DNA from: Heterotrichella gracilis
Taxonomy: Eukaryota; Sar; Xanthophyceae; Tribonematales; Xanthonemataceae
Direction of reading: 5' to 3'
DNA: 64,000 nt
Assembly (NCBI GenBank): GCA_032358255.1
Contig: JAULBX010015311.1
Coordinates: forward strand, 29,024-93,023
Part shown: piece after piece, positions 1-64,000 of the stretch
Numbering within the stretch: the stretch's first letter is position 1
Layout of the letters: every line of letters starts with the position of its first letter
Translations under genes and position numbers: made by a program
Notes under the pieces: generated by a model
Told to the model about the DNA's origin: nothing
Seen by the model: the letters and a program-made list of their open reading frames with translations, nothing else
The model's database searches: none

Positions 1-1954
1 CCACGCATTTCTGGATGGCGGCGCCACCCTGATTGAGTGGAAGTGCCCCCAATATGCCCCCCGTGGTCGCTGCGCGTTTGAGGGGGTGAATCTCTTCGAG
101 TATGAGTGGTCTTATCCCAGTACCCTTGCTATCGGTGGCCATGCACAGTGGGGAAAGGAACACAGGTGTACATGCCGTTGCCGTAAGGCCCTCGTTATGG
201 AGTGAAAATCGCCCTGCTCTCATATCTGCCATGCATTTGTGGAGAAGGACCTCATTGGTGGGATGGTACCACGTCCACCCTTTGCCGCACACATGGTACA
301 CTTCAAACAAGGCCCACCTCCCTGCAACCCACTGCCCGCCTGCACCACCCAACCTCCCTCAAACCCTAAACCCTAAATCCCCCACCCGCAGGCTGAGGTC
401 CAATCCTTCTATGCGGACGGGACCACTGCATTGCACACGCGAAGCACCAAATATGGCAAGGTGGGAGGCAACAATGGGACGTGTGGACGGCTCGCAGCAT
501 TGTTTCACATGATTGTGTATCATTGGTATTGCTTTTAATCTTTAAACACTGCACACACTTGGACACCAATCATGAAAGGGGAAAGCCACAGGTTTATCAA
601 TAATAACCATTCATCTCCATCGATCCTTTGGTTCATTCATTACCCCCAAACCCCTGCGCCACTCTGCCCTTGCCTGGCAATTGCAGCTGGTGGCCGCACC
701 CGCACAGTGCATCAAACTCCTAAACCCTACAATCCAAACCCTACAAACCTCACCCCGCCCTGCCCGGTCTCTACATTCAAATCGCGGCCAGCTGGTGACT
801 GCGCCCGCACTGCGCATAACACCCTAAGCCCCAGCCCTAAACCCCAAGCCCAAAGTCCTGACGTTGCCCTGCCCCCTCCTCTACAGTTGAAGCGCGGCCA
901 GCTTGTGACGGCACCCGCGCTGCTCATCAAGAGGCAGAAGCAGCACTTTGTCACCCTGGAGAGCTGCGGTGAGTAGGACAATCCCTTCTCGTAGGGATTT
1001 CTGCAGACAAGGCAATAAGCTGATGACGGCTGGGAATGCCTGTTTGTTAGTCTGTTTGTTTGTAGGGATTTCTGCAGACCCCAAACTTTGTTGTTACGCT
1101 GGATAGCTGCGGTGCGTGAAAAGGATGGCAAATTGCACTTCAGCCCACCCCACCATCTTTAATCACATTCACGTTTGTATTAACAACCATAAGCTTGGGC
1201 ATAGCACGCCTGGCACCCAGTGACAAACCCCAAACCCTAATAAAATGTCTCACGCTTGCTACTTGACATCCAGGGGTGGACATCATACTCGGGTGCAACG
1301 GGCTAGTGTGGGTGGCACCCCACACACCCCACCAAGACCCGCTCCCCTCCACAAACGACGACGAGCCACCCCCCGAGGCGCCCCTGCCCCCCCCCACCCC
1401 CCAGCAGCTAGAGGCCACATGCAGGGTGGCCAATGCAGTCACTGCGCTGGCTAAACTCTACCTGCCCATCCACACTGCGAGTGTTACAGAGGCGTACCAG
1501 GTGAGCAATGGGGATGCGGGTATACCTTTACATTTCTATGAATTTGCAAAGCAAGGTAGCCATAACATGGTAAAGTGGCAAAGAAATTAGTGAGAAAGGA
1601 AGGAGCAATGTGGCAGGTAGGAAAGGCGTACAAGGTGAGAAGTGGGGGTTTGAAAATGTGTACATTAATGTACAGTACGCTCTCTGAATTGGAGGAGCAA
1701 ATGGCCGTAGCCTGGGGCACGCATAATAAATGGTAGGCTCGACTGTAGGAGTCATTTCAACCCTACCAATGGCTTTAGAACATGGAGTGAGCGGATGGAT
1801 CTTGAGTCACTACCCCACAAATTTCTCACCTACCTCCCTTGGCGTGCAGGCCAGCCTTGACCAGGGGGTTGCATTGAGCGACATGGAAGGGGAGGATTTT
1901 TTGGCTGTGGTGGTGCAGCTGGAGGGGCAGCGGAGGGAGCAAATGGAGCAATAG
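1..1954 (+). CDS. RRP4: Exosome complex component RRP4 (EXOSC2-like), 5'-truncated by the window edge
   Basis: RRP4 is the S1/KH cap subunit of the RNA exosome, the 3'-5' RNA processing and decay machine of nucleus and cytoplasm. Four in-phase exons are clear: 392-460, 887-968, 1274-1500 and 1850-1954 (stop). They encode an S1-domain end (AEVQSFYADGTTALHTRS), then YGKLKRGQL, LIKRQKQHF, the KH-type GxNG motif (ILGCNGLVWV), and a C-terminal helix region (CRVANAVTALAKL) like plant and animal RRP4. A proline-rich insert (about 1320-1400) lies after GLVWV. A further exon ending near 265 (HAFVEKDLIGGM) would join in phase 0, but its donor (GTACCA) is weak and this part is tentative. Anything upstream is outside the window or unresolved. 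Telomere-like repeats sit just before the acceptor at 391. The gene converges on the minus-strand gene ending at 2559. Confidence 0.88.
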
Positions 1955-2558
1955 CAGCAGTGGGGGATGGGGAAGGAGGGAATGACACAGCTGGAGGATC
2001 TATTTTCTGTTCATTTGTGATTTGGATTTCACACCAGATTTCTAGATTTTTTGTGACACAGCTGTAGGGTTTCTGCAGCGGGTGCAGTGCGAGGCGCAAT
2101 ACAGCATTGGCTTCCCAGGGTATTACTTATGCAATGCTGGCAATGCTGTTGAAGTTGCCGTTACTCAACAAAACAACTGGCAATTCTGCCTACGGTACAT
2201 AGCTGCACTGTAACTGTAGTACTACGTTCCTTGCTGCACTGGTACAATTACAATATCAATTTGAAATGGGTAAAATTTACTGAGACATCCATGCTGCACA
2301 CGCACACACCGTGCCACACCCGTATACTTGTGCCACTGGCAGACAGTCATGCCAGCGCTTGACAAACCCATGCAAATCCTCGTGCCACACTGTGGATGTG
2401 GTTACCATATACCGTAGTTGCAAGAGATGTGCATCGAGCATGTGCCTCAACCATAGTCCTGCTGAAATAGAGCTCTGAGCTGTGGGTTAATTGCCACAGC
2501 CCCTACATAATTGTCAATACTGAAGGTATGCAGTACAGCATGATTGCCCCTGGGACCC
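1955..2558. other. Convergent intergenic spacer
   Basis: This is the spacer between the RRP4 stop (1954) and the stop of the minus-strand gene (2559). It must hold both 3' UTRs. A TGTAA pentamer, the usual green-algal poly(A) signal, occurs near 2209 on the plus strand. I see no coding exon and no structured RNA. Confidence 0.5.
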
Positions 2559-5500
2559 TCACGGCAGTGTTTGGGGACCCTCCGCCTCATCACAATCCCG
2601 GAACATGAACGGCCTGCCCTCAAACTGCCCAAACTCAACAAAGTGGCCAATCAACCTGTCAGGCAGCGCGCCCGTCAACCCTAAATCAGGGTTGTAGGTG
2701 CGGTAAAAGTGCACGTCGAAGCACTTCCCCTTGACGCTCCTCCCCTGGTGCGTCAACCCCCTAGGTGCCCTAAACCACAGCGGGAGCTCTGTCCAGTCAT
2801 TGGTGGAGACGTCAGGGGAGGGAACTGGAGGAGGGGAGGAAGGGGAGAAAAGGCGGGACTGAGGGGGCTCCAGATGGGGTTGTTGGCGCTGCTGGGACCA
2901 CTTGTCGTATTTAAGCGCCTTGGTGGCTGAGGACCAGTGCATCTGCTCGTTTAGCTCTTTCACCTGGCCAGAGAGGCATGGTGGCAGTCAGGACATGCAA
3001 GGGTTTCAGTTTAGGGTTCAAGTTAGGGTTTAGGTTCCGCTGCCAACCCTGTGTGGATGCTTATCAGCTGCCAATGGTTATTTTTACTGCATCGGGATGG
3101 TTTAGGCCTATCCTGACAGCACCAATAGCTGCTCAAATGCACTCAAATGCATCTAATTTTACCGCATTGTATCCACATGCAGCACCTACATGCTGCGCCA
3201 TGCACGCAGATGCAACCGCATGCACTTACATGCATTTGGATGCGCGTACAACCAGAGCTGTTTTGGCTAAGTGGCTTGCTTGTTTGGATCAGCGTGTTGA
3301 GGTGGCCTGTAGCCTACAGCTCCTGGGTGCATCCAACACGCCGAGCAAACAAGCAACGCTCTAGGATAAAACAGATCTGGTTGTAAGGTTGTAAGGCTAT
3401 ATGGTTGCTGCAAGGCATGGGAACTAATCCACCAAGGTTAAGGCAGTCCCTCCCTTTTGTAAGTGGGAGGGACAGTGCCCTACCAAATAAATAACCAAAG
3501 ATGTCAAACTAAATCTATTCTCCTCTTTTTTATTTTATTGCAGAATTCCCTAGCGTTCGCTAGTGCACCTCCCACCTTGACAAAGATTGTCTCCAGTGGA
3601 TCCACCGACACCCCATCATAGTGCCCGTCCATGTATGGGTTGAGGCCAGCGTTGCAGGACCAGGTGGAGGGGTCACGCCAGTCGACATCCTGCGCAAGGG
3701 CGTGGTTGGTTGGTGTCCTGTCATGCCAGATGCAGGTGGCGAGTGTGCACTCAGGCTGCTGTGGAACTCTTACGCATGTGGAACACCACTTAAGCCCTCC
3801 TATTTCACCAATCAAAACATCCATTGCAACTCAAACTACTATACCCTCCAATCACCTTCCCCCCATCACCTGCACACTACCCAGCTGGTACCACTTAATG
3901 AGGCAGTCCAGCCCAATTCCTGCCTGCGGCACTGCCCAGCTGGCACCCAAAACCCTACCCAAGGGCAGCACCAAAACCCTCTCCGAGTAATGCTAACAAT
4001 TGTGGGGTAAAACAGTTTGATTATTTTGGCCCCCCTCCCCTCACCTGGTACCGCTTCATGAGACAGTCCAGGCCAAACCCCGCCTGCAGCACCGCCCAAC
4101 TGGCACCCAGCTCGCTGTGGTAAATTACATCAGGCAGGCTGTAGTGGCAACAAAAAGCAGGCAGGGAACCTCTAAAACCCTCTTCTAGAGCTCTACACAC
4201 CTCACCCCACAAACCTCCCACCACACCCACCTGGTACCGCTTCAGGAGGCAGTCCAACCCAAACCCCGCCTGCAGCACCGCCCAACTGGCACCCAGCTCA
4301 CTGTGGTAGATCACATCAGGCAGGCTGTAGTGGCACTCAAAAACCCTGCCAGAATCCCGCAGTATGGCCAGGCCCGTGGCGTCTGTGGCCAGGAGGTATG
4401 ACTGCACGTGTGGGTTGCGGCGCGCATCGGTGGCGGTGGTGTTGGTGGCGGGGTTGTGGGTGGTGAGGATGGTGCCCTCGCAGCTGCGGAGAAGGGTTTA
4501 GGGTTTAGGGTTAGGGTTGTGGGTGGTGGGTGGTGAGGATGGTGCCCTCGCAGCTGCGGAGAAGGGTTTAGGGTTTAGGGTTTAAGGTGGTGAGGATGGT
4601 GCCCTCGCAGCTGCGGAGGAGGGGGGGTTGAGGGATGAGGGATCTGTGCTGGTTACTGTTCTTATCATAATTTTAAATTATCAATCAATGTTCTTATTCA
4701 TTATTATGGTGCCCTTGCAGCTGCATAGCAGGAGGCCAGGAGCGGTGGGCAAAATAGGAGGGAAATGCTGGTAAAGAGAAGGCAATGGAGCAGAGTTACA
4801 TTACGATATGAAGTGGCTACTGCCAGAGTTGCTAATTGCCAAGAATTGCTTGATGGCGCACGCGCAAGGCGGTCTGCTGACCTGGCTGTAATGCTGGGCA
4901 TGCATGTACATCCTGGCAAGACTTGCTATGGTTTGCATGTGAACATTTCACCTAGTAATACAACGTGATTATGGAAAATGTACCAGTGACCAGAACGCTC
5001 CCTTCCCCTACCTTATTGTTGCCCCCACCAGCTTGACCTGGTCTGTGATCCTGCTGGTAAAGGGGACCCGCCAGTGCACCCCCTGCGGCCAGTAGGCAGG
5101 CAGGAATGGGCCCCGCACCGAGGAATTCAGGAAAATGTAGAATTTGTAGGACGAAGTGTCCACCCCTCTCTCCTCCAGCAGCCAGCCAATTGTGCCCCAG
5201 TCAAAGCATGAGTTGGTGTGGTGCTCGTAGCGCGCGTTGGGGGGCAGGGGGGGGAGGGACTCGAGGGGAGGGGAGCGGTCGCCCTGCGGATGCATGCAGT
5301 AAGCAATTCATATGCAATGTGCACTGGGGCGGGGGTTTGAGAGGGGAAACAGGGCAGTTGGCTATTTCTTTGTGGCCGGGCAAGCAAGCAATTTGTGATC
5401 CTTTGGTGCATAGAACCTAGAGTAAAAAACTTTGCGGCGTGTTGGGTTGGGGTTAGGGTTTTTTACCAAGCCCTGACCTGTGGACACCCCTCCACCCACC

Positions 5501-6873
5501 CCGCCCACCAACCGCCCACCCACCTGCTGTAGGATGATGATGTATCTGCAGCCGTCGTTGTTTCGAATGCCCTCCCTCACAAAGTAGCGCAGGTTGGCCT
5601 CGTACTCTTGGGGCAGGGGAACAGGGTTTAGGGTTTAGGGTTTTGTCCGCACCCAACACCATGGTTGGACATGCTTCAAGTGTCAACAGCATGCGCGTTG
5701 TACCCTACAGAAACAGATAATGCTGTTGACATTTGAAAGCTTTCAAAGTTTCAGCCGTCCTCATTGTACCCTACTAAGGGACTACTTACCGGGGTCGGTG
5801 TTTGAGAAGACATACACCACCAACGTATCCACAGCGGCGGCCACCTTCCCTCCCCACTGATCACCACGTGATGTGCGCCCCTTGGAGCTGCCCACAAACC
5901 CTAGGGTATCCGCGTCGACCTGCCAGGATTCGGCAAGGTGTCGAGGCCTGCGGGGCAGAACAAGGATGTTCAACAGTGAATTCTAGATGCCACCACCGGT
6001 CCAAGTTTGTATATCTTCATGACGTACGTACATGCAAATTCTGGCAAAACTGCTATGGTCTCATGTAACGGTTGGCTTTTGCAGCCCTCTTGCACAAGTG
6101 CTCCTGGTCCAGGTCCCGGGCCAGGCGCGCTCCATCAATTACCCTGCCATATTTTGAGCCAGTGGTGATCAAATCTACCATTTTCCATTCTACTTTGCTG
6201 CATTTGTTACATTCTATTAATGGGTTACATTTCTTTTGCATGGGATACCTATCATAACGTCATTCTACCGCTGATCAGATGACCATGGGGTGGTGGGCCT
6301 GAGTACACAGGGTTTGCCTGGATGTCACATGATGACTTAAAATAAATACCCTGCGTAACTCTTGATCATGCTCCAAACCCTACCAGGCGCTGGCAGCTCT
6401 GAAGCTCTGATGCCCGCCTTGCTGCTCGTGATGTAAACCCTAAACTGCGCTGCGCAACCCAGGCTCAGAAACCCTAACAGGCGCTGCCAAGTTCCACCAC
6501 CCCCTTCCCACGCCTCGCACAGTCCCCCATCCTACACCCACACCACCACCCCGGTGCAGGGGCTCCCGTACAATTGGATACATCCCCTCAGCTATCCTGT
6601 TTATTTACCCCTCTGGCTTAGCCCCACCCATCCCTGCATTTGCACCCCCTACCTCACATGCTCCCTCCCCTGCAGCGCCCCCTGATCGCAGCCTTGCACC
6701 CCACCGGCACCACCTGGCAGCTGCCTCCCATGCAGCGCCAGCGTCACGTACGCCACCACCACCACCGCCAGCAGCAGGTGGGTGGCCAACGCCATGCGGG
6801 AGGTGGCGGCGCGGTCAGCAGTGGGGGATGGGGGCCCATGCTTGGCCCTCATGAGGGTGTGGTGGGGCAGCAT
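2559..6873 (-). CDS. Putative Golgi type II membrane protein, glycosyltransferase-like algal family
   Basis: Seven exons join in phase to give 501 residues: 6873-6653, 5947-5790, 5606-5524, 5283-5012, 4483-4231, 3689-3576 and 2963-2559. The first ATG (6873) precedes an uncleaved signal-anchor (ALATHLLLAVVVVAYVTLAL, about residues 28-47), so a type II secretory-pathway topology is likely. The lumenal part has DTLVVYVFSNTDPEYE, NSCFDWGTIGWLL, FYIFLNSSVRGPFLP, FTSRITDQVKLVGATISC, VQSYLLATD and PLETIFVK. It ends with FDVHFYRTYNPDL and HFVEFGQFEGRPF, a module also seen beside bacterial glycosyltransferases. I recognise the family from algae and fungi but know no demonstrated activity; the sugar-transfer role is inference. 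A segment at 6078-6190 looks partly coding but is not needed for phase. Both edges of exon 4483-4231 have decayed copies in the flanking introns. Confidence 0.75.
3884..4160 (-). repeat. Donor-side exon-edge echoes of exon 4483-4231
   Basis: The 3' end of the minus-strand exon at 4231-4340, including its donor, recurs downstream in the intron. A close copy is at about 4040-4140 and a more diverged, shorter copy at about 3884-3950. The first copy remains open in frame with the exon, so a splicing machine could use either donor. Copy order runs from nearly identical to degenerate away from the exon. Confidence 0.85.
4459..4625 (-). repeat. Acceptor-side exon-edge echoes with telomere-like repeats
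   Basis: A unit containing GGTGCCCTCGCAGCTGCGGA, the acceptor and first bases of the exon starting at 4483 read on the plus strand, occurs three times. The copies are near 4471, 4537 and 4599, separated by GGGTTTAGGGTTTAGGG runs. Only the copy nearest the exon is expected to be used. Confidence 0.9.
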
Positions 6874-9069
6874 GGCCGCTGGGGGATGGGCGGTGGTGGC
6901 GGCGGTGGCGGTGGTGGTGGTGGTTCGAAGATGCGGTGTTGTGGTGAAGCGCTGCCAAGGGGTGGGGTGAAGCGGTTCAGGCGGTGGTGGTGGTGGTGGT
7001 GGTGGTGGGGCTGCGCAGGTGCGGGCTGTGAGGCTGCATGATTTGGGCAAGGAGGGATTCAGCTCTAGCCAAGAGCCATGGTGAGAAAACCCTTGTGAAG
7101 TGAGTGATTGTTACCACACAGCCTGCAGCAGGTCCACAATAGATTGGGTGAGATGCACTGCCAAATATGGTGGTGGTGCTATTGTGTTGTCAATCGCTTA
7201 GCTTCCATAGTTTGCAACGAGGATGCTCTTTGCAAACTATGGAAGCTAAGCTATTGGCAACACCTCCCATGATGGTGTACTGCCCTGCCCGGCCAATTCT
7301 GACCACACCTGCCGTGGAACGAAGTTCTATATTAATGCACAATAGTAGAAGTTACGGGTAGAGTGCAGGGTGTCTGCAAACTGCTAGTGCCGCTGACACC
7401 GCGCCCGCTAACCTTGTGTAGTCCTAGGTGGAGGCCTTATCGTGGCTCCACCTCGAAGGCTTCGAACGCCAGAGGCTCAAGATTCCTAGCTTGTTAGTAC
7501 GGTGCCCTGTCTTGGTGCACCCCATTAATATTAGCAACAAGCTCCAAGGAGCCTGTCGCAGTTTTGAGAATTAATACCTTGTACGGGCGTGGTGTCGACC
7601 TCGCCGGGCGCTTTCAGTTGCACCCAGTACCCATGGATTAGCCTCAAAAATATGCTTCCATCACCCCGGTGAAAGGAACTTCCTTCAAGGACAAACGGCT
7701 TTCAGAAGAGCAATGAGGTGACTTGGCAATGGCCATGGACATGACGTTTGTGGCGATGACGATTACCGATGCAGTTTGTGCGAGCGAGCGTCACTGAGCA
7801 TGGGCGATGCTAACCCCCAGGGGGGTTGACACCACAAAAAATGCAAAAAAAGGGATCCGTGTGGTTTGCCCAACCGCCGCCAGAAGCTGCCGCCCCCTTC
7901 CGTACCCACTGCTTGCCGCGTTGCCTGGTATCTGGGGTATAACTGCCAGGTGTCTGGCAGTGATACACTCCATTCTGTGCCCCGTGGGACCCCCAGGGTT
8001 TCCTGAAGGAAGCACGTGACAATGCTGCCCCAAGGCAGTTTCAGAAAGCAGTGCTTGGGACGGGGATGGAAGGCTGACAACTGGCTGGCGGCGTTACAGG
8101 CTGGACAATCGGCCCAGCCCATTTCCTGGGCCGACATGGAACCACACGGACGACCAACATTGATTTTCCATGGCTTATGACCTTGGCAAGGTGCCGGGTT
8201 CGAATCCTGGGGCTGTTTGCTCTAGGCAGTCTGGACAGTCACTGAAGTGACATGCAATTAGAACAAATTCAGCCAGTGGCTGAACTGATATTTTAAGTGA
8301 TCTTCCAGCCAAGGCTGAAATTTGACAGCTGATAACGTTATCAACACATCGTTGTGTGATACAGCATTTGCATACTTGACTCAAAAAAATCTGCCCCAAC
8401 CTACTAGGTGCTTAGCAAGTTGCCGTTGTTGCATGCATGCCACGGTACTACCCTTAGTAGTAGTACTCAAGTAAACTGTCCATGGGCGCACCCATAATGG
8501 CATGCATGCAACATGCATTGAATGTCACAGTGACAGACAGAGTTGTCAATGATGCATAATGGCATTTCCCTTGAAAATCTTAGGCATAAGGCTTAGCCAG
8601 AAGTGCACGACGGGAGTGCTGATATGACGATTGGAGTCATATCTAATTGACATAGATAATTCACTTCACCTGTTCTACATCCTACCCATATGGCACCAAA
8701 TGCCAGTTCACAAAACAATAATGTTTCAAGTTGCAATGCCAGTCCCAATAGCTGTATGATTTTGCTGGGGTATGATGGGGCTGACTCAGTTCATATACGA
8801 CTTGAAAGCTCATGAGTAATGTAATACTATCTTGTATCAGACTTGAAAGCACAAATTCTAGAAAATAGATGCGTACCTCTGTATTTGCAGGTGGTGAGCT
8901 GCTGAGTACAGTAGCGTGTAATGCCAAATGTTGGTTCACAAATCTACACCATGTGCCTGTCTCTACCACGATATCTGCTCAAATCCAGTGCCTAGCTACT
9001 GCTACAGAAAACCTATCAACCTTACAAAAAGAAATCCAATTGTGCAACCAGTAGCTGGTTTCTCCTCAC
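6874..9069. other. Spacer upstream of the glycosyltransferase-like gene
   Basis: This stretch has no exon I can support. It holds trinucleotide-rich DNA next to exon 1 (GGT/GTG runs near 6890-7010), the strong inverted repeat at 7184-7263, and short palindromes. One palindromic pair is TTGCATGCATGCCA near 8427 and its complement near 8498. An isolated pol III B-box-like string is at 8197-8207. The promoter of the minus-strand gene starting at 6873 must lie in its left part. Confidence 0.5.
7184..7263. repeat. Near-perfect 34-bp inverted repeat (hairpin)
   Basis: The left arm is 7184-7217 and the right arm 7230-7263, with a 12-nt loop at 7218-7229. The inner 22 bp of each arm are perfectly complementary (from GCTTAGCTTCCATAGTTTGC inward). 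Over the full 34 bp there are only two differences, and one of them would be a G-U pair in RNA. This could be a small-RNA precursor, a MITE remnant or a cruciform. Nothing in the sequence alone decides between these. Confidence 0.9.
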
Positions 9070-9540: not shown

Positions 9541-12500
9541 CATGACCACGCAGCACTTGCATCCGGCCTGGGGCACGTAGCCATCGTCCTCATCCGCATC
9601 CGCTGCCGCATGGTGCACCTCGGAGCGGTCGGTGGCGGTGCGCCGGCGGCTCTGCAAGGTGGGGAGGGCAGACCCTGGCTTAGGGTTTGTAGCAGCTGGA
9701 TGACTATGTGCGGCGGCATGCTTTGGCGTGCAGCAGAGGGCACAGCGTTGTGCCGCCAGGTGCCAATAACCAGTGGGTCAGCCCCACGCCATCACAGGCA
9801 GCTGCCACCACTCGCTCACGCAACATGACTGTGTTGTGGCATATCTGAGATATGACTTGCAACACATGAATTTGCCCAGCCAACTGACCCTATCTCCTCC
9901 CTTCCCACAGATGCGCCTCACCCAGGCACACCACTTCAAGGGTTTTCACGCAAAAACCATAAACCACAAACTCTAAAACCTGAAGCCAGGGTCCAATCAG
10001 TCTGCCCCGCCATACCTTGGCGGCCACTAGTGCACCGCCTGCACTTGAGTGTTCAGTGTCAGGTTTGATAGGGTTTCCGCCATCCTACAGTACCGCTTAA
10101 GCTTTTCAGTTCTTTTGCTTTTAGGGTTTGTGCCTCCCTACCTTGACAGCTTGGGCCACCTCCAGGGTTGCTTCTGCGGAGGGTGCCTCGGCTTCAGCAG
10201 TGGGCTTGGCGGAGGTGGGGGGGATGGGGATGCGGGAGGGGAGGGTGCCCATTGGCTGCGGGCGTGAGGGCACAGCACTGGCGCGCGCCTGCTGCAAGGG
10301 GGTCAGGGTTCGTTGCAAGGGGTTCAGGGCATGACAAGGCTATGATCCTGTGCAAAGCAAGCATGTGTGCCATTGCATTGCACATGCTGGGGAGGCATGA
10401 GACAGCAATCGCCATCGCAAACCCTACTGAAACCCTATGTGCGCCGCACCTCTGTTTCCAGCGCCATGCGCTGCGAAGGCTGGCGCAGCTTGGAGGGGGT
10501 GGCTGAAGCCATTGGTGGGGACCTGACGCCGTCGCCAGAGGGTGGGGTGGGGATGCGGCTCACAGCCACCCCACCAGCCACCACCGCCGCCTTGGTAGGT
10601 GTCACAAACTGCTCAGATGCAGGCGCCTCCTCCTCTTCCTCCGAGTCTTCTTCATCCGAGCTCTCCCCCTGCTCTGAATCCTCCTCACTGGTGGCCTCAA
10701 TGGAGTCCACAGCTATGGTCTGCTCGCCCTCGCTTTCCTCCCCGTCACTCTCCTCCTCACTCTCACTCTCCTCCCCTGACGCGCTCACCTCCTCCTCACT
10801 CATCTCCTCCCCTGCCTGTGAGCTGTCGTCGCTATCGCTGCCACCTGGCGAGGGCCCCTCCTCCTCGCTGTCCTCATCCGCTGAGCTGGCACCTTCGCAC
10901 AAGAGATCCAAGGGCTCGATCTCGGAGATGGCGGGCAGGGCTGACGCATAGGGAGCAATCTCGAGCTCTTGCGCTCCCTCTTCCATGAAATCCTCAGAGG
11001 GCGCATTTCCTTCGGCCCCTTCCACCACTGCATCTGACTCCAAGCCCCCCTCATCCATAAGATCATCTGCATCAATGTGAGTCTCCGAGGCCGGCACCAT
11101 GGGAGTGTCCCCAGCTGCCAGCGGCTCAAGGGGAGTACTGGGAGGGTACCACGCGGGGATGGCCAGGGGGAGCGGGGAGTCAATGTCATGGGGAGTTACG
11201 GCGCTGTCTGCTGGCTCCAGGCTGGTGCTTGGCTCTGGTGATGGCGGATCTTGGGCGCCAGAAGATGTGGCCGATGCTGTGTTTGTGGCTGCGGCTGCGG
11301 CTGCGGCTGCCAGGCCTGCAGTGGCAGCCTCCGGGAAGGCGGCTGCGCTGTGCTCCACTAGCAGGGGGTCCACCCCACGGGCAGTAACGACATCCCCTCC
11401 CAATTCTGCATGAATGGTGCTTGGCTCTAGTGTTGGCGGATCGGTGGCGCCAGCATGTGTGGTGATGGCTGCAGCTGCCAATCCTGCAGTGGCAGCCTCC
11501 GGGAAGGCAGCTGCGCTGTGCTCCACCACCCACTCCTTGCCCTGGTCCTCTGGCTCATCACCACCAACAAAACCTTGCTCGGGGTTCTCCTCAGTGAGGG
11601 GAAGGGCTGCATCCTGTGCTGGGGCTCCTGCAGCCACTGGCCACGTGCCAGGTGGCGCCTCAACTGCCTGCTGCACAGGATCGGCATCCAAGGATTGGGC
11701 TGCCTCCGCCATGTCTGCATCCAATGACTGTGCTGCCTCCGCTGCCTGCTGGAGTGGTGCGGCGACACCATGCACAGCCTCCTCCTCCTCCCCTCCCTCC
11801 TCATCTGCACTGAAACCCTGGGAGGGGTTTTCGTGCCCATCCTCTGCCCCGTCCATCGCTTGCACATCGCCATGCTCCTCAGGTTCTGAGTAATGCCAAG
11901 GCTGCACCACCAGACGCACATCCCCGATGGTTGTGGCATCTGCCTGCTGAGATTGCTCCCCAGCTGCAAAGCCCATGCCAGTGGGGCCATCATGGTGGCC
12001 CTGGGGATGCTCCACAGATTGCGCATCCCCAGCATCGTCGCTCTCAAGGTCCTGGAATTGCTCCACAGATGGTGCCTCCCCACTGTTGACGCTCTCAGAG
12101 TCTTGGAAGCGTTCTGCTGCAGTAGCGTCCACAAACTCCTCACCGGCAAATTCCTGGGATTGCTGCGCATCCACAAACTCCCCAGTACCAAACTCCTGGG
12201 ATGGCTGCGCCGAGACAGCATCCACAAACTCGGCGCCGGCAAGCTCCTGTGGCAGCTGCACCGCCCCTCCGTCCCTGTAGCCACCCTCCCCAGGCCCCTC
12301 CCCAGCCTCCTCCTCCGGTGCATCAAACTCCTCGTCGCTCATGTCAGTCACCTCAAAGGACTGCAGGCGGGTGGGCAGCCCGCGCGCTGCGGCGGGGGAG
12401 TCCACCCTCCCACCACCATTGGACACAGCCGCTGCTGCTGACATGGCGGCCTGGGCGGCAACGGGTGGTGGTGGTGGTGATGGTGCTACCACTGGTGATG

Positions 12501-51657: not shown

Positions 51658-54600
51658 TCACTGCGCTCCCCCCTTGGCCCCACCCCCCACCAGCTGCCGA
51701 ATGTCATACCCACTCCTCCCGGTGCGAATGGCCGCCGCCCTCCCGGGCCCCACCCGTTTCATAATCAACCACCCCAGCCAGGGGGCATACTGCATGATGT
51801 AGCCTGCAGGAAGGGAACGACGGAAAGGTAAGTGGCCGCGACGGGTACATTATTATTATATTTCTATTTCTAAGTGGCCACCATCACGTGCGACCACAGC
51901 ACAGGAGTTCAAAGGCGGTTTCAGTTTTGTGTTGCTCCATGCGTGTACAACATGCCGTCAATGCAGGTAGAGCCTCCATTACCGCCATGCACCCCACCGA
52001 GCAGGGGTGCCTCTGAAACCACTCTGTGTTGGGCCAGTGTAGGCAGCTGCTGCCGACGCTGCCCCCAGCTCTCCATTTGCGCACAAACACACCACCCCCA
52101 ACCCCCGCACCCCACCCCACCGGCACCACCAGATCACCAATCCCCACCCTGCACCCATCTAGCAGCAGCACAGGATGCCTCGCAATCCACACGGCGTCAA
52201 GCTTGTGATAAGCAGCTGCCGCAATGAAGTGCACCACACACTTAAGAGCCACCCGACTGCCCGCTAACTCTCCCTTGCGCACAAACTCATCTCCCCCCAA
52301 CCCTCCCCACCCACCCACCAGCATACCCACAGCACCAAATGACCACCCATTGGCCTGCACGCACCTAGCAGCAGCACAGGATGCTTCGCAATCCACACAG
52401 TATCAAGCTTGTGGTAGGCTGCTGCCGCAATGAGGTGGGCCACACGCTCAGGAGCCACCCTGCTTCCCCTGCTCCCCGTTGTGTTTTGTTGCTCCATACC
52501 CCTGGGGCCGTACACCGTACGGGGCTTGCCCCCACCTCCGGTGGCCACGGGGCCTGGGCAGCAGACAGTCACCTGCACACCCCTGGAATGGAAAAGTGGG
52601 CCCAAGTTAGAGATGTGTGGCATCTTGATCCTAAGTGGATTCTAAACGGACCCTAAACCCTAATGCATATCCCCTTGGTCCGTGCGTCGTGCATGGCTTG
52701 CGCCCCCTTAACCATGGCCACAGGGCCTGGGCAGCACATCGTCACCCGCACCCCCCTGGAATGGGGAAGTTGGTCAAAAGTAGCATGTCACCCTAGATAG
52801 GTAGCGATGCCGCTTGTTGTACGCGCATGCTCGACTCGAGCATGCGAAACAGGGGTTGGGATTTTGAGCTTTGAGGTTTAGGGTCTAGGGTTTTCCGGCC
52901 CCACCTGTCCGCCAGCTCACTGTTGATTGAGTCGAAGTACCCCTTGAGGGCGCTCTTGGTGGCGGCATACACTGACTGACCCGGGGAAGGCACCTGCAAC
53001 AAACATGTATGCCAGTTGTTGGCAGACCATGTCAACCCCTGGGACCACACAGGCATTGCGTACAGAATTGAGATGGCACCTGCACCGCACCCACACCCAC
53101 ATGGTCGCAAACTGTGGGCACTGGTTACCCAACTAGGATTTCCCCACCCACCTACACCGCCATGTTTCATACCACCACATGGCCCCTCCCCCCTGGCAAG
53201 CATCAGAGAACCCGATTGCCATACCAAAAAAATCTAACTAGGCTACCATCAACACGCCAACTAAATAGCATCAATTAGGGTATTTACCAAAACCCCAACT
53301 AAGGATTTTCCCCCGCCCACCTGCGCCGCCATGCTTGACACCACCACGTGGTGACCCTTGCCCCTGGCCAGCATCAGGGGGGTACCAGAATACCCAATTG
53401 AATTCCATCAATACCCCGACTAGAGTATCACCAATTACCCTCTCCCCCTTTGCCAAAACCCCGACCAGGGTTTCCCCAATCCACCTGCGCCGCCATGCTC
53501 GACACCACCACGTGGCGCCCCTTGCCCCTGGCCAGCATCAGGGGGGATACAAAGAACCCTATTGGTTTCCACCAAAACCCCGACTAAGGGTTTCCCCCGC
53601 CCACCTGCGCCGCCATGCTTGACACCACCACGTGGTGACCCTTGCCCCTGGCCAGCATCAGGGGGAGTATGGCACGAGTGAGGCGCAGGGGGGAGAGGGT
53701 GTTGAGGTCAAACACCTGCTCCGCAACGCTGGGCAGGGCCTCATCGGCAGACGCATGCTGGGTGGCGCCTGCGCAGAGGTTTTGGATAAATGCTGTTGTA
53801 CCATGCATGCAGAAAACCGCGGGTTATTTACTGTACCATGCAGCGTCTGCACAAAACTTTGGAAAGTTTTTAACACGACAGGGGATGTGAGGTCAGAGAC
53901 TTCCTCTGCCACACTTGGGAGGGCCTCCTTGGCAGATGCATGCTGGGTGGCGCCTGCGCAAGGGTTTAAAAGAGGGCTAATACACTATGAAGACTGTTGA
54001 GCGTGCTGGATGGCGCTTGCGCAAGGGTTTGCAAGGGTTTGGTTTTGCACACAGAGGGCACCATGCATCAAGATAGTAATCAGGGAGTTGCCTATACTTG
54101 CACCGAACTGTAGCTGGGCTCTTCTTCACTGCATTCCTCTCCCTTCTATTCTATTAACCATATTAACCATACTGTCTTGTGTCTAGGAGGCCCTACCCGC
54201 ATTATGCACCAAGTACGGTAGTCCACCCCTGCCCATTACTATCATAATAATTATATCATATTCTTGTGCAATTTTCAAAGGGCCCTACCTGCATTATGCA
54301 CCAGGTAGTCCACCCCTGCCCCCGTAAATGCCGCTTCCCCTGCCGCCGCCACCCCTTGGAAAGTGTCAAATAGGCACCATCATACACCATTAATTAATTA
54401 ATTTACGGGGGACTTACCCGCGTTATGCACCAGGTAGTCCACCCCTGCCCCCCCAAATGCCGCATCTGCTGCCGCCGCCACCCCTTGGAGGGTGTCAAAG
54501 TCCGATGTCACGTCAAAGGGGAGCACAAGGATGTGATCGGAGGGGAGGACATTGGCAAGGGAGGATTTTACGGCCTGCGGGAAGGGAAGGGAAGGGAACA

Positions 54601-55851
54601 CGTGCAGATGAGGCAGAGGAAGGGGAAGAGGAACAGGAACAGGAACAGGAACAGGAACAGGAACAGGAACAGGAACAGGAACAGGAACAGGAACAGGAAC
54701 AGGAACAGCATGGCATTCCACAGGGTTCAATATGGATGTTCAATAAGATGTTATGTTGAACATGGACGTGAATCTGCTTATCACATATGAGCCAGAGTTG
54801 GAGACAAAGCCAGAGGATGAATTAAATGCAACTCCAGGATCTGAATCCATTGGCTCCTTAATGCAGTGCAGTCCCGCCAATGCATGCAGTATGTAAAAAC
54901 AGATGCGTTCCCATTTTAAAACCAAATTAGCACGCACGCGGTCAACCGCATCACAGTAGGTTTATTGCCTAGCCCCACCTCCAGTTTCTCCTTGCTTCTG
55001 CTGGACAGGATCAGCTTGGCGCCGTGGCGAGCAAACAAGCCTGCCAGTGTCTCTCCCAAACCCTGCGCAGGGCAAAAACAGGCCATCACAACACGCGGCG
55101 CCACAAACCCTAAACCCTAAACCCTACACTCCCACACCTCGTCCAGGGGTTCCAGAAGGCATCACAGCGTCATGCGGAGTGTGCTTGGAAGTTTAGGGGT
55201 TAGGGTTTAGATGCTGCGCGGCCCGAAAGAGGCGGGTTGTTTGGCAATTGGTGTGTAGGGTTTAGGGTTTGGACCTGGTAATAGGTGATAAGGAGGTGGC
55301 GGGTGCACAGTTGGACTGTCAATACCATTCTGATGGACAGGCTTGTGGAACGTGCACCCTGTGCGCAGTACTCCAAGACGGCACCGCACGCCACAGAGTC
55401 GGGCATGCATGCATGTGCCACTCCCCTTGCCAATCCACATGCATGCTTATGCATATTCTCCACCACCCACCTGGCTTGCCCCCGTGATCCACACCACCTT
55501 GTCTTGGAACGCCCTCGCAGGTATCCTCGACTTGCTCAACAGCTTCAAGTCGGCATCAGCCCTGCGGAACCAGCGCCACATGCTTACTGGCCCTGATAGA
55601 GCATTGGGCAGGTTGCAACACCAAATGTGCAAAGCTGTCCAGTGCACTGGATGACAAGAATGAGCGAATGCAGCACGGCAGGTTACTTGCACCCATCCTT
55701 ACAAACGTGGTGTGCACGTATGTGTGGGAAGAGAGAGAGTTTGTGCCTTTCCCCATGGCGTCCTGCAGGCATGGCATGGCACCCACCTGGCGAACCGAAC
55801 CAGCGTCCACAGCCCATACCCCACCAACAGCCATGGTGCTAGCGCAAGCAT
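51658..55851 (-). CDS. DHRS7: DHRS7-type short-chain dehydrogenase/reductase, ER membrane
   Basis: This is an NAD(P)-dependent classical SDR; DHRS7 members reduce carbonyl and retinoid/steroid substrates at the ER, and the substrate here is unknown. Eight exons give 337 residues (human DHRS7 339): 55851-55787, 55561-55471, 55062-54979, 54574-54418, 53768-53605, 52993-52905, 52582-52365 and 51803-51658. An N-terminal membrane helix (LAPWLLVGYGLWTLV) precedes the Rossmann start VVWITGASQGLGE (TGxxxGxG). FDVTSD binds adenine, and YLVHNAGATQ holds the NAG motif. The catalytic Ser is in VVVSSMAA and the YxxxK pair in YAATKSALKGYF. CCPGPVATG follows. The C-terminal VWIAKHPVLLLGYIMQY and LGWLIMKRVG match DHRS7 better than ketosphinganine reductase, the main alternative. 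Introns on both sides of exon 5 and after exon 4 are built largely of exon-edge copies. Confidence 0.9.
52140..52250 (-). repeat. Echo of DHRS7 exon 7 donor half
   Basis: Plus-strand text CTAGCAGCAGCACAGGATGC and CACACGGCGTCAAGCTTGTG at about 52159-52205 copies the exon 7 end (52365-52440), about 210 bp away, with substitutions. An acceptor-half copy (GGCCACAGGGCCTGGGCAGC, then CACCCCCCTGGAATGGGGAA) is at 52718-52769. Confidence 0.92.
53147..53560 (-). repeat. Three echoes of DHRS7 exon 5 donor edge
   Basis: CCACCTGCGCCGCCATGCT and the following CTTGCCCCTGGCCAGCATCA occur at the real exon end (53602-53663). Copies are near 53492, 53320 and, more decayed, 53150. Each is followed by GGGG and then AACCC-rich intron text ending in CCC(A/C)C. 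Periods are about 110 to 170 bp. Confidence 0.95.
53884..54040 (-). repeat. Echoes of DHRS7 exon 5 acceptor edge
   Basis: The plus-strand strings GCATGCTGGGTGGCGCCTGC and GTGAGGTCAGAGACTTCCTC (53886-53960) copy the exon 5 start (real acceptor at 53769-53771). A shorter copy is near 54008 (GCTGGATGGCGCTTGCGCAA). With the donor-side copies, exon 5 has at least five edge copies. Confidence 0.93.
54187..54370 (-). repeat. Two echoes of DHRS7 exon 4 donor edge
   Basis: GTTATGCACCAGGTAGTCCA marks the real exon 4 end (54423 onward). Copies are at 54293 (CATTATGCACCAGGTAGTCC) and 54200 (CATTATGCACCAAGTACGGT). The nearer copy extends about 85 bases through CCGCCGCCACCCCTTGGA. Confidence 0.95.
54631..54708 (+). 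repeat. Thirteen-copy GAACAG microsatellite
   Basis: This is an uninterrupted (GAACAG)13 tract in the DHRS7 intron upstream of exon 4. It opens long artificial reading frames on both strands, which are not genes. Confidence 0.97.
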
Positions 55852-56506
55852 CTGAGAGGGCTGCACCACCCCTGCACTGCACTGCACGGCACCACCCCGG
55901 CGGCGGTGGTGCGCACCCCGCCTGGCGGACTGTGGTCTGTGGCGCACCGGATGGGTGCCACGGATGGCGTGGGGTGCAACTGCGATGGCTGTGGGGCGGC
56001 GGTGGTGGTGTTGGCAGCTTAAGCCTGCGGGTTGAGTCCCCATGTCATACGGACACTGACTGTGGCCGGGCCAGGGCCCCAATATGCGGGAGACAGCTTG
56101 TTTCAGCGGTTTTTATAGGAGAACTTCTGCAAGCCACGACTCCCAAGGGTACACATATTCGTATCGGACATTCCAAAGTGGTACATACCCAGCTGCTGCA
56201 ACGCGCTGCTCTTCTCTTTTTCGCAACCACTACCACGGACCACGCAGTTGTACACTGTCTGTTACCCAAAGAAAGGGCACAAGTTGGCATGCCGTGGCGC
56301 TGGGCAGCATATGACCTCTGGTGAACTTCAGCTTGCTTCACAGGTGCTCCAAGGGCGTTGTCCCTCTTGAAAGGAATTTCAGGGCAACTCTTAGAGTTTG
56401 GTACCAAGCACGTCTCCTCAGGGCTAGTAGCTAGTAGTCCCCTCAAGTACCTCCATGTGCATGCCGTGAGCCAGTGGGGTTGCCTACCCTGCCCACCTAG
56501 CAAGTC
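55852..56506. other. Divergent promoter region DHRS7 / At4g00755-like
   Basis: This 655-bp region lies between two divergent start codons. A long minus-strand open frame crosses it and the plus-strand exon 1 (about 56045-56896). It has no protein-like features and I treat it as an artefact of GC-rich antisense. No TATA box or repeat stands out. Confidence 0.45.
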
Positions 56507-59014
56507 ATGGAGCCCGACCCAGGCGATTTTTTCCCGCGCAACCTGCAAGGCTGGCCCCGCAACGTCCACAACCGCCTGATCAGGCACGCGCTGGGCCAGC
56601 AGGGCTTCGCCTTTTGCGATGGCGAACAGCCGTCCGTGGCGGTGGTCGACGGGGAGTGGCAGCAAACAGTGGTGAGCGGCACGCGCAACCTGGCGCTGGC
56701 GGCGCTGCGCGCCTCTAGCGAGGACCATCCCACGCAAGGGATAGGTGGGTGGTGGCGGCGGTGGGGCCGAGCAGAGTGGATTTTGCTTGCATGCATATGG
56801 GTGGCATATGCATGCAATGCATGCGTAGCTAGTTAGGGAGGGAGGTTCTTGCGTGCTAACCAGCGCAGGCAGACTAGCTGTCAACCTTGCAAGCACACGT
56901 CACTCAGCTGTCTAGGCAGGCTTGTGCCACTCCTTGAGTGTGTACACCCCCAGAACCCTAACTGAAACCCTACCAACGCGCCCCGCACCACCCAAGCAGA
57001 TGGGCCATCTGCTTGTGAACGCCTGCTGGTCATCCTTGGGTAGCTGCGGTCCCATCACCGCAGAACCCTGGAAGACCGTAGCAAAGTCTCACCGCGTCTT
57101 GCCCTACCGAAAACCCTACCAACCCGCCCCACACCCTGCAGCCTGCACCCTCCAAGCGGACGGCACCTTCTGGTCGTCAGTGGGCAGCTCCGACCCAGCC
57201 AGCTCGGAAACCCTACTCTATCGCATGAGAAACCCTAGCGTGGTCAAGGCCGTGCAGCTCAGGGTGTACCGGGCAAATTTCCAGCATGGAGAGCCCATCT
57301 ACCCCCCTGAACACATCCAGGTGGGTAACTCTATAACCCTTAAACCCTATACTTTGAACACATTCCAGGTGGGTAAACCCTACACCCCTAGGTGCACGTT
57401 AGGGCAGGTAGGCCATGTGCAAAACCCTGAATCCTAAAGCCGAACCCTGAACCCATCCAGGTAGGTAGGCCTACACGCCACCTGGGCCAGCAGCACTGTG
57501 GATGGCACAGATTTAAAGGTGGTTTGAGCAAGGTGAAGCTGCTTGGCGCCGCATGTGCAAGAAATTTTTTTCTTTTATAAAATAAAATATTCAAGACAAA
57601 TCATTACTACTTTTTGCTGGCTGCTCATTTGGCTGTGATTATGCCCATCTAACTATCATCATTGTATTATTGCTGGACGCCATGTTGCTAGGAAACTAGC
57701 CCACCCTCAAAGCGCACCTACACATTCACTCCTCTAAATCCTTGTTGCGCCCACCCTCCCACTCCCCTGCTTACCTTCACCCCTCAATTTACCCCCTATT
57801 GTACCTTCAGGTCCACATTGGGCCCACCCCCGAGGCCCTCCAGCCGGCCACTGATTTCCTCCCCGTGGCCAGCCACGACGGCTGGCAGCTCTTCCCCCTC
57901 TCTCCCTCGGCCCCCACCGGCCAGTACATCCAATTTACCCTAAAGGGTAAACGCCAGAAGCAGCTGGAAGACATGCTGTTCTACCTGGCCATCTCAGGTG
58001 CGAGCAGGAGGTTCTGCCTGGCCGCGTGTGAACAGGAGGTTCTGGCTAGCGGCATTTGAACAGCAGGTTTTGCCCTTGCCGCGTTTGTATAGGAGGTTTT
58101 GCCTGGCCATGTCAATAATGAACAAGAGATTTGGGCCAGGTAAGGTGTGAAGAGGAGGTTTTGCATGGACCCTGCCTGTATCAAGGGTTCAAGCGGTTCA
58201 AGGTTTAGGCCTTCTGCCTGGCCATCAAAGGTGATCTCAGGATTTCCTCCCGTTGAACCTGGTTAGGGTTGCGTGGTGTTCCAAGAAGGCTGTGTGTTTG
58301 TTGTGTTTGTTGTCATGCGCAATTGCAGCTGTAGGTTGTAAAATTCAAGTGCAGTTGTGATCAAGCCACTGACTCGATGCTTGCAATTTGTCAAATGCTT
58401 GCAACCTCCCGCAGGTGTGTGGGCGTGCGGGTGGTGCCTCACCCCCTCGCTGGTCAATCAGTGCACCGCCCACCTTGCCACAAGCAGCCAGGCAGTGCCA
58501 GGTGGCACAAGCTCAGTGCCAGGTGGCGCAAGCTTGGTGCTGCCAGCAAGGCGTGTGTGCGAGCTGGCTGCCAAGGGGGAGGCGGCGGAGGGGAGGGGGG
58601 GGAGGAGGGGGCTGCCGCACCGGCCCAGGGGGGATGTGTACTGTGGGGGGGCGACGGTGGCTGGGGAGGAGCTGCAAGGTGAGGGCATTACGAGAAGAGT
58701 GCATGTGCATGGAATCGGTTGGGGGGTGCTCTGGTTGTATTGCATGGCTGGACAATGCAGCTGCTCTCCTGGGATGCAGTTCTAGGGTGCAGGTTGGGGG
58801 GTTGTGTGGTGGCGCGTGGTGTGAGGGAGTCAAGGACGGAAGCTGTTCTACTTGATGTATGCCCCCATGTATGTCAACAGGAACTTTTCTGGAGAGGGTA
58901 GTTCCTGTCAACATAGGCAGGAAGAGCAAGGCAGTATATACTGATTTGCTTCCTCCCGCAGGGCAACCCGTGAGGGTGTGGGCTGGCAGCTGCATCACTG
59001 GCGATGACACGTGA
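56507..59014 (+). CDS. At4g00755-like protein (F-box-associated C-terminal region, no F-box seen)
   Basis: Five exons give 306 residues: 56507-56744, 57142-57320, 57811-57997, 58415-58678 and 58962-59014. The middle resembles the C-terminal region of the plant F-box protein At4g00755. The visible elements are TFWSSVGSSDPASSETLLYR, VVKAVQLRVYRANFQ, GEPIYPPEHIQVHIGPTPE and a Gln/Lys-Leu stretch before DMLFYLAIS. I do not see the N-terminal F-box helices in exon 1. The protein may therefore lack the SKP1 contact, or the true start may be upstream. The last 100 residues (Gly/Ala-rich) match nothing I know. The final stop at 59012 overlaps a perfect GTGAGT donor, so the gene may continue by splicing and the C-terminus is uncertain. 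A role in ubiquitin targeting is inference by family. Confidence 0.65.
56990..57060 (+). repeat. Echo of exon 2 acceptor edge of the At4g00755-like gene
   Basis: AAGCAGATGGGCCATCTG with CTGGTCATCCTTGGGTAGCT is a diverged copy of the exon 2 region at 57152-57198 (AAGCGGACGGCACCTTCTGG, TCGTCAGTGGGCAGCTCC). On the donor side, ACACATTCCAGGTGGGTAAA (57358) and CCCATCCAGGTAGGTAGG (57451) echo ACACATCCAGGTGGGTAACT (57311). Confidence 0.85.
58001..58170 (+). repeat. Minisatellite of about 28-32 bp units
   Basis: About six imperfect units of (A)CAGGAGGTT(C/T)TGCCTGGCCG-(C)GTGTGA type follow exon 3 of the At4g00755-like gene. They resemble the end of that exon (CTACCTGGCC). They may have grown from an exon-edge copy by further tandem duplication. 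A later single copy (GCCTGGCCATCAAAGGTGAT) is at 58215. Confidence 0.85.
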
Positions 59015-60300
59015 GTCAAGGCTCAGTTTAAAAAAGTGCCGAGATGTGATGACCAACAGAACCTGATTGAATGAACCGAACAGAATGCAGTAGCCAATTG
59101 GTTGATGAGATCATCGTCTGTGTGAGAAGGCAGCTACACAGCTACATCCATATGGCAATTGCTAGCTTCGAGGAATGACTGGATTTCCGAAAGATGGCCA
59201 GGGTTATGCCACAGTGATCAGTGATCGTCTGTGCGTGATGACATTGTTGTTGTGGCAAGTGTAGAGAGTGACAAGTGTAGAGAGATTTGCTCAGCCATTC
59301 CAGTGGTATGAGGAGCCATCCAGTAACAATGCGTTCCCTTAATCAAGTTTGTTCTTTCTTTCTTCTACTCACCGTTAACAAAAAAGTGTCTCCAAAGCCA
59401 TACAGTGTATCATATGTGACGTCATTGGCGTGACTCATGTCAGGGCAACTACAGGGCCGATAATAGTGCACTGCATGCTGCCCTTAGTGCTAAAGCCTGT
59501 CTGTCCTCCATTAGCCCTGCAGTGCCCTGTCATCAGTGGCAGAATCACACCAAGATTACTGTAGAATGAAGAAAGAAAGAAACAGAACGCCCCCACACAC
59601 GGCGACTCACCACAACCAGCAACATAGAACGAACGGGAGCGCACAGTCTTGGAAGGGCGGATCCACATGTAGGGCTCGCACAGGACACCAAATACACTGT
59701 ATAATATATTGGTGTTGGTCATGTTCTTAAAAGGACTATTAAAAAATCCTGATGTGACCATAGCAACTGCCCAGTTTGAGACATGGGCACACCTTGGCTG
59801 CACCTTGGCTTTGCAATGGGCCAGGGGCAGGGCGCGGTCCTAATGCATGGACACTGTCATTCTAAGGTGTTGCTGTGCAAGACGAATGAATATCAGTATT
59901 TGCCGACAAACTTCCAACTAGTGGGAGCTCTGTCCTGCTGGGCTGAGTTTTGTCGTGCTTGCGTTTCCGGCGCCAGTTTGGCATGCATGCATTTTGGTTG
60001 TCAATGCAATGCCCATAGTTAAATACACCGGAGGACACAGCCTCGACGCCATGAAAGGTTGAAAAAACAGAAACCCCATATCCTCATGCACCAGGGACTT
60101 GCTGCATTGAACATTCGTTGCATCGTTTTATATGTTTTTGGTTTTCCCGCCATATTCGCGTCCACTATTGTTGCAGCTTAAGCAACGTGCATTTGTTCAG
60201 GCCAGCAGCTTTCGTGGGGCTTCAATTAGATCCAACAAACCTATTTTCTGTGTGGCTACCAGGCTTCCCACAGCAGCTGACTTCTATTCGTGTGGTTACG
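59015..60300. other. Spacer before the P-loop ATPase gene
   Basis: This 1.3-kb region has no recognised exon. It contains the third copy of the dispersed GCCCCCACAC element (59567-59611) and, presumably, the unrecognised first exon or promoter of the downstream ATPase gene. Confidence 0.4.
59567..59611 (+). repeat. Dispersed repeat, copy 3
   Basis: GAAAGAAACAGAACGCCCCC followed by ACACACGGCGACTCACCACA. It shares the core and the A/G-rich leader with copies 1 and 2. Confidence 0.8.
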
Positions 60301-63300: not shown

Positions 63301-64000
63301 TAGGACAGGTTGCATGGATGGCATGGGGGGGTAGCTGTCCCGGTGCGGAGGCCATGCAGCAAGTAACGCATTATTGCGGATTATGCGTTTATATGACTAG
63401 TTTTTAATGCGCATTGTATGTGACAGCATGCTACTTGCTGGTTAAGGGTATATGTTTTGGGGTTTAGGGTTTTAAAATAGGGTTCTAAATTAGGGTACTG
63501 ATCACTTCAGACCATGCTTTGTAATGACTTGGAGGGTAGGTTCTGAAGTGCGCGAGCTGTGGGATTCCAAGCGCCTAGGCAAGGGTGTATATCGTAGATA
63601 AAAGGGTTTTGCCAACTTTAGTGATACCTTGAGCTTTACACTCAACATTCTGTGCTTTATTCTGTAGCTGATATGTGTAGCATGTACCCTGTTCCAAAAG
63701 CAATCTGTAGTCATTTACTGCTTTTCTATCCTGCAGAGGTGGATAATGACAACCTGCACCGCATGGTGGTGCGTGACTTCAATGAAGCAGAGGCACGCGG
63801 CTTTGCAGAATGGCTACTGGCCAGGCAAGGCAGCACCAAGACGTTCTCAAGTGGGGTTGAGCTGCTCTTGTGGGTCGTGTTGTTTGAGGTGAGAAGAAAT
63901 AATGAAATAAATAAATAAATAACTACGCTCCTCATCTCAAGAACGAGGGCGTTGGTTGAGGAAGAGACAGAGTGAGAGAGAGCCAGCCTCGGAGGCTGGT
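60301..64000 (+). CDS. P-loop ATPase of the AAA+/archaeal ATPase (ATPase_2)-like group, both ends incomplete
   Basis: Exons that join in phase are about 60318-60375 (LEALLRRQRVAPPNNRKKVS; its 5' limit is uncertain), 61509-61634, 61921-62486, 63015-63226 and 63737-63888. The gene continues past 64000. A basic, Ser/Pro-rich leader is followed by IYGREAEKERLEAFF, the usual lead-in to an ATPase_2 domain. The Walker A loop is GPPRTGKS (about 62101-62124). NVVWVDCTIVHPP then follows. The Walker B strand is PVLVVDGAQ, where the residue after Asp is Gly rather than the catalytic Glu common in AAA+ proteins. FSVLLITSDPALQA resembles a sensor-1 strand, and VVRDFNEAEARGFAEWLL the helical lid typical of STAND/ATPase_2 proteins. 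Function is unknown; signalling or DNA-related switching is the usual guess. No start codon is proposed. Confidence 0.7.
63490..63522 (+). repeat. Echo of an internal edge of the ATPase gene
   Basis: ACTGATCACTTCAGACCATG with CTTTGTAATG repeats CTGATCACTTCAGACCCTGC with TCTGCAGGCATG from exon 63015-63226 (63184-63215). It follows a TTTAGGGTTTT run in the downstream intron. Confidence 0.8.
63902..63922 (+). repeat. AAAT microsatellite
   Basis: This is a short (AAAT)n run just after the last visible donor of the ATPase gene. Confidence 0.85.

Follow-up and report, generated by a model that had tools for sequence, protein, structure and literature searches.

Copies of exon ends recur in the adjacent introns of a 64-kb window of Heterotrichella gracilis DNA, probably through local tandem duplication tolerated by splicing

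Exon-edge echoes, copies of the end of an exon and its splice site that lie in the adjacent intron, recur throughout a 64-kb window of Heterotrichella gracilis DNA. This window is the whole stretch that was analysed and the scope of all counts given here; it has a GC content of 0.56, and its predicted genes are intron-rich. Eleven genes were predicted with a home-made gene finder that used no homology input, in an uncurated first version and a curated second version in which echo intervals were barred from being exons. The RRP4-like gene was identified by a PDB match, the NOC3 gene aligns to known proteins, the CSN6 gene (minus strand) has a protein-level match to CSN6, and the PII gene matches a known PII protein, with 4ush, which we take to be the Chlamydomonas PII protein, as its best PDB match. 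Pfam matches identify the HSF gene, the SDR gene (adh_short) and a HEAT-repeat gene (HEAT), which is presumably RELCH-like. The AAA-like gene matches AAA_22 just above the cut-off and AAA_16 below it. The gene at 2559-6951 and the F-box-like gene have no Pfam match, and their labels (GT for the former) are tentative; "SxIP-rich protein" is our own label. The uncurated gene finder called several echoes as additional exons. In the curated model the echoes of an edge fall inside one predicted intron, but this model had barred them from exon status. Because echoes mislead gene prediction, automated gene calls in a genome of this kind may include false duplicated exons.

Self-comparison of the window at an expectation value (E) below 1e-3 returned 49 repeat pairs, of which 42 are local and direct, one is local and inverted, and six are distant. 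The copies of the local direct pairs lie 63-471 bp apart, and the excess of direct over inverted local pairs (42:1) has a binomial p of 1e-11. Grouped by hand, the 42 pairs form 28 loci: 26 at exon edges (14 acceptor edges, 10 donor edges, and two whole small exons), one exon-internal, and one intron-only (45239/45460). A more sensitive search, extended to E=0.5, gave 66 local pairs, the weaker additions being in many cases at edges, with some exonic and some intron-only. Five of the edge sites (4451, 29134, 29396, 35548, and 53283) were reported as head-to-tail arrays by Tandem Repeats Finder (TRF). In a hand list of 43, the unit spacing has a median of 107 bp (range 57-255).

A sequence-only reading of this DNA had claimed that acceptor-edge copies lie upstream of their exons and donor-edge copies downstream, and had proposed aligning introns with their own flanking exons against shuffled pairs. 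Run on the 116 introns of 50-1000 bp with a match threshold of score 36, this comparison bore out the claim: of 208 exon edges compared with the intron next to them, 28 matched (acceptor/upstream 14/105, donor/downstream 14/103), whereas a shuffled partner was matched in 0 of 2,320 pairings (0/1160 for each edge type). Far exon edges gave 0/105 (0/53 and 0/52) and the opposite-strand control 2/208 (1/105 acceptor, 1/103 donor); the own-edge counts drop exons shorter than 20 bp and the far-edge test those shorter than 120 bp, while the shuffles drop none. At score 50, own edges still matched at 11/105 acceptors and 8/103 donors. Since echoes had been barred from exons in the curated model, the test was repeated on the uncurated one, where own edges matched in 22/238 cases (12/120 acceptor, 10/118 donor), far edges in 1/55 and 0/54, and shuffled pairings in 0/1,380 (0/690 each). 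Exon-edge echoes are thus confirmed as real: about one intron in five contains degenerating copies of the adjoining exon end (24 of 114 introns counted by gene, 23 of 116 in the hand list). The suggestion that nearly all genes are affected holds for nine of the eleven predicted genes, one of which, the AAA-like gene, has only a single weak match (score 38), and the SxIP-rich and F-box-like genes show no echo at score 36.

The five intervals that had been offered as examples (4459-4625, 21138-21597, 29095-29738, 35636-35775, and 53147-54040) all contain repeats in same-strand orientation that extend across a splice site. On the plus strand, self-comparison detected a decayed echo at 684-817, upstream of the acceptor of an RRP4-like exon (887-968), in which the splice AG is lost, and a weak echo (16900-16957; E=0.002, outside the 26 loci) lies upstream of the acceptor of exon 17097-17262. 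The RELCH-like exon 19076-19271 is followed downstream of its donor by two echoes within 19367-19485 (19367-19425 and a weak one at 19454-19485), and two more (19581-19793) precede the RELCH-like acceptor at 19889, the nearest being identical at 87 of 91 positions in its exon part. Units of ~190-199 bp at 21107-21600 comprise two echoes and the true acceptor near 21529, and two echoes (24583-24866) lie upstream of the acceptor of exon 25061-25268. The NOC3 exon 27216-27358 has an echo downstream of its donor (27412-27465) in which the donor GT is lost; an echo at 28019-28066 lies downstream of the donor of exon 27715-27859, and one at 28202-28304 upstream of the acceptor of exon 28357-28501. 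Both edges of NOC3 exon 29289-29429 are echoed, with two copies upstream of the acceptor (29076-29226; TRF and self-comparison) and three in 103-bp steps downstream of the donor (29499-29742; TRF, 103 x 3.4). Single echoes lie upstream of the acceptors of exon 30046-30228 (29882-29930, decayed) and exon 32195-32387 (32084-32157). In the HSF gene, two echoes, the farther one weak, lie downstream of donor 43881 (43945-44115), one lies downstream of donor 45670 (45728-45790), and one upstream of acceptor 46051 (45956-46001).

On the minus strand, exon 4231-4483 has two echoes downstream of its donor within 3879-4156 (4042-4156 and 3879-3949, identical to the exon at 104/113 and 55/65 positions of their exon parts) and, at its acceptor, a head-to-tail array found by TRF (4451-4634) with units of ~70 and 57 bp and telomere-like repeats between them. 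Two echoes in 91-bp steps lie upstream of the CSN6 acceptor 35587 (35639-35774; TRF and self-comparison) and one downstream of the CSN6 donor 36162 (36075-36115). The PII gene has one echo upstream of each of the acceptors 48535 (48588-48638) and 49121 (49197-49236). At the end of the PII gene, a weak duplication (47753-47813/47878-47939, E=0.007) may span the stop codon and would leave its copy in the 3' flank, an echo-like pattern. In the SDR gene, two small exons recur whole with their intron flanks, exon 52365-52421 at 52159-52262, where the copy in use is uncertain, and exon 52537-52582 at 52666-52773. SDR donor 53605 and acceptor 53768 are the two edges of one exon, the donor being followed by three echoes (53128-53545; TRF and self-comparison) and the acceptor preceded by an echo (53888-53967) and a fragment (54001-54030) within 53888-54030; two further echoes (54186-54370) lie downstream of SDR donor 54418.

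Echo-bearing introns (n=23) have a median length of 528 bp, or 263 bp after subtraction of the hand-drawn echo intervals, against 255 bp for the other introns (n=93). Their length is roughly double that of the rest, and the excess is about the length of the echoes. The proposal that introns here lengthen by repeated local duplication across the exon-intron boundary agrees with this excess, and the copies look like products of such duplication. Local duplication tolerated by splicing offers a testable route for introns to lengthen, and the constrained exon serves as a reference against which the origin and later decay of intron sequence can be followed directly.

The exon side of the echoes is better kept than the intron side. 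Over 40 bp each way at 29 loci, the exon side has an identity of 0.84 and the intron side one of 0.64 (unrelated baselines 0.51 and 0.48), and corrected divergence is 0.33 and 0.69, a ratio of 2.1, figures that include RELCH-like 19889 and 21529 with mis-set edges, which are corrected in an analysis of 20-30-bp windows. Exon and echo differ at codon positions 1, 2 and 3 in 45, 35 and 101 cases, and 14 of the 16 gaps in their alignments break the reading frame; both counts draw several pairs from a locus and are not independent. One-sided drift of the echo together with synonymous change in the exon accounts for much of this divergence pattern. Decay that increases with distance, as originally described, is seen in part but does not hold throughout: among the NOC3 donor copies the outermost one agrees best with the exon in its exon part (33/34 versus 31/34 and 30/34), the far CSN6 acceptor copy is identical at 40/40 positions and the near one at 39/40, and the SDR donor copy with 61/61 identities lies farther out than that with 58/61.

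We consider it likely that echoes arise by frequent local head-to-tail duplication of ~60-250 bp segments, which splicing tolerates and whose orphan copies then decay in introns. When such a duplication covers one splice site, the spliceosome would keep using the copy contiguous with the exon, leaving the protein unaltered, and the other copy, made up of a piece of exon, the splice site, and a piece of intron, would stay in the intron. At an acceptor, joining at the contiguous copy would keep the protein, whereas use of the upstream copy would read intron; donors would be the mirror image. Repeated rounds at one spot would produce arrays, and each orphan would decay while the exon copy stays constrained. 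Duplications across the boundary would be tolerated because splicing can retain the exon-contiguous copy, and as only intron-resident copies would be harmless, selection by itself would produce the side bias.

Which copy is spliced we infer from homology, which agrees with the echoes being skipped in CSN6, PII, NOC3, RRP4, and SDR. The CSN6 protein match passes uninterrupted over the 35587 junction with the echoes skipped, and the two PII echoes, treated as coding sequence in the first model, show up as insertions relative to the known PII protein. NOC3 and RRP4 models free of echoes align to known proteins with small gaps, including one of four residues near the 29429/30046 junction, and SDR matches adh_short in one stretch (1.5e-46) without the echoes and in three (1.3e-44) with them. 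Searches for relatives of CSN6, PII, and HSF in viral contigs and of HSF in genome contigs confirmed none. Splice-site dinucleotides are retained in most copies scored (AG in 17 of 18 acceptor copies, GT in 10 of 14 donor copies). This tally combines 26 of 29 from a later scoring with RRP4 (lost), 27358 (lost), and 30046 (kept), leaves some far copies unscored, and anchors echo splice sites by best match, which favours kept sites. Retention of 27 of 32 sites is unremarkable at a per-site survival of 0.81 (p=0.41) and would be marginal were survival 0.65 (p=0.013).

The same class of mutation is found where coding sequence tolerates it. A long coding exon on the minus strand, whose limits (10450-12593) were set by hand, contains in-frame tandem duplications with periods of 192, 51, and 42 bp (11223-12210; TRF and self-comparison). 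A further exon-internal duplication, with a period of 93 bp, is weak (E=0.02). All four periods are multiples of three, for which the chance is 0.012 if they are independent.

Several results weigh against duplication followed by simple drift. In 20-30-bp windows, an analysis without RRP4, 27358, and 30046 that includes extra far copies at 25061, 35587, and 53605, the ratio of intron to exon divergence is 2.9-3.4 (bootstrap 2.1-5.05 over three windows), where neutral decay predicts 2, and third positions take 101 of 181 substitutions (56%), compared with a rough neutral figure of ~46% (p=0.005). Divergence above 2:1 and the third-position excess remain unaccounted for by the drift model. The intron part of the unit beats every other intron (p at the floor of 0.018) in 15 of 30 comparisons, but in the other 15 it is not clearly better than unrelated introns. 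At RELCH-like 19889, donor 4231, and the far CSN6 copy, a well-preserved exon part adjoins an intron side that matches no better than unrelated sequence, so that similarity stops exactly at the splice site, and simple tandem duplication is insufficient there without later insertion or replacement. At 25061, by comparison, the intron side is alignable and similarity continues beyond the splice site; at 32195, 53768, and 27859 a short match beside the site is visible by eye, but it does not stand out from unrelated introns (p 0.76, 0.09, and 0.67). Finally, edge loci outnumber intron-only loci 26:1 at E<1e-3, which is above the edge fractions in simulations; an observed 26 of 27 has a p of 9e-7 to 0.002 for edge fractions of 0.53-0.73, the value of 0.73 being our own weighting of the simulations by age.

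This last excess is what would be expected if exon edges were true hotspots, with duplication aimed at splice junctions or preferentially kept there, for example through transcription-coupled breaks at exon ends, an explanation that we regard as improbable. Random placement of units, with the hand-drawn echoes removed, assigns 0.446 of them to an edge or an entire exon, 0.281 to introns, and 0.131 to intergenic sequence. When duplication and decay were simulated and scored at the same BLAST threshold, the edge fraction was 0.54-0.60 overall and 0.66-0.69 without intergenic sequence, and it rose with age bin from 0.53 through 0.54, 0.72, and 0.86 to 1.00. An edge-spanning duplication would stay recognisable longer than an intron-only one because its exon copy is held by selection while both copies of the latter drift, and the excess over intron-only loci may largely reflect this visibility; the simulation may also let intron similarity persist too long. 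With exons and echoes masked, five edge loci, recognised by the intron part of their units, and two non-edge loci (45239, and 58002, the latter in the masked run only) are still detectable. Five of seven is consistent with random placement at 0.52-0.61 (p 0.26-0.44), and seven loci are too few to argue against a preference; we therefore make no claim of edge targeting. The tolerant coding exon holds duplications away from edges too, and the idea of a systematic copying of exon edges, read as a process aimed at splice junctions, is unsupported, as even a strict side bias requires no aim. Were junctions hotspots in this lineage and orphan copies able to keep working splice sites, introns would extend from their ends in a ratchet-like manner and leave a store of spare sites for alternative splicing; we offer this as a speculative extension that is probably wrong.

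The echoes could instead be functional alternative acceptors, donors, or exons under selection, in keeping with the retained AG and GT dinucleotides, an exon part conserved more than twofold over the intron part, and the excess of third-position changes. We think this very unlikely, as 14 of 16 gaps break the frame, most echoes hold part of an exon (a whole exon is copied at two of the 26 loci), and splice-site retention is unremarkable to marginal depending on the survival assumed, with an anchoring that favoured kept sites. The copies do not form tandem alternative exons, in which each copy has a complete exon, both splice sites, and an open frame. Delivery of exon pieces into introns by mobile elements (introners) or processed retrocopies has next to no probability in our judgement: although the introns share telomere-like motifs, no echo matches the exon edge of another gene (0/2,320 pairings at score 36), nearly all local repeats are direct, distant repeats are few in the window (6 of 49 pairs), and the same sequence was not found at many unrelated sites, as it is for introners. 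Copying from spliced RNA is ruled out because the copies extend over the splice site into the intron. Tandem repeats are often misassembled, but most copies differ from one another (pair identities of ~70 to 100 percent, with private gaps), which misassembly of one sequence would not yield, and the chance of an assembly artefact seems negligible.

Internal duplication has reportedly been described as a source of introns by Gao and Lynch in 2009. The closest parallel to the local duplication favoured here is the potato RdRp gene, for which Ma, Lan and Niu (2016; PMC4974935) describe a tandem duplication that spans the intron-exon boundary and whose copy supplies splice signals; in that one gene a new intron was gained, whereas here the copies sit within predicted introns, which they lengthen, at many edges in one 64-kb window. 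The work of Hellsten et al. (2011), as described in PMC4974935, likewise involves a local tandem duplication within a gene that is tolerated through splicing, but in our window no new intron is evident, an exonic AGGT is unneeded, and existing splice sites are duplicated. In Lipomyces stwintrons a splice element is also duplicated at the intron edge, and PMC7138796 ascribes this donor duplication to break repair; those duplications are only 4-7 nt long and yield a nested intron. A possible origin is suggested by mouse and human cells, in which, according to PMC8355091, small tandem duplications form when CST-Pol alpha-primase fills in staggered breaks that have complementary 3' overhangs and the ends are then joined. 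Like the echoes, these duplications are short and head-to-tail, occur with or without extra mutation, and need no prior repeats. The breaks studied there had 43-54-bp overhangs, shorter than the spacing of the units here, but something like staggered-break fill-in and end joining may act in this genome. Single boundary-crossing duplications have thus been published already. The sequence-only reading knew of no description of systematic serial copying of existing exon edges, and we found no account of dense echoes, with roughly a fifth of introns affected, in the open-licence literature, which misses most subscription papers.

Telomere-like filler as a driver of the duplications is unsupported, with a motif density of 2.67 per kb in echo introns versus 2.40 per kb in other introns; 13 of 23 echo introns and 30 of 93 others have at least one such motif. 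The CCCTAAA/TTTAGGG heptamer occurs 90 times in the window, where ~9 are expected, and 81 of these lie in introns predicted by the uncurated model. Read in gene sense, the C-rich form gathers towards acceptors, with 19 of 40 copies in the final fifth of the intron, and the G-rich form towards donors, with 14 of 41 in the initial fifth. PMC8226300 describes TTTAGGG as the ancestral telomere type of green algae; judged from the sequence alone, this motif and the PII match to 4ush would suggest a green-algal source.

Other repeats in the window include a minisatellite with a ~28-bp unit in the region of the F-box-like gene (58002-58168) and a dispersed repeat of ~45 bp that occurs at three places in both orientations (35997-36040, 51570-51622, and 59571-59618). 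A hexanucleotide array (54610-54708, GGAACA on the plus strand) lies in an SDR intron beside acceptor 54574.

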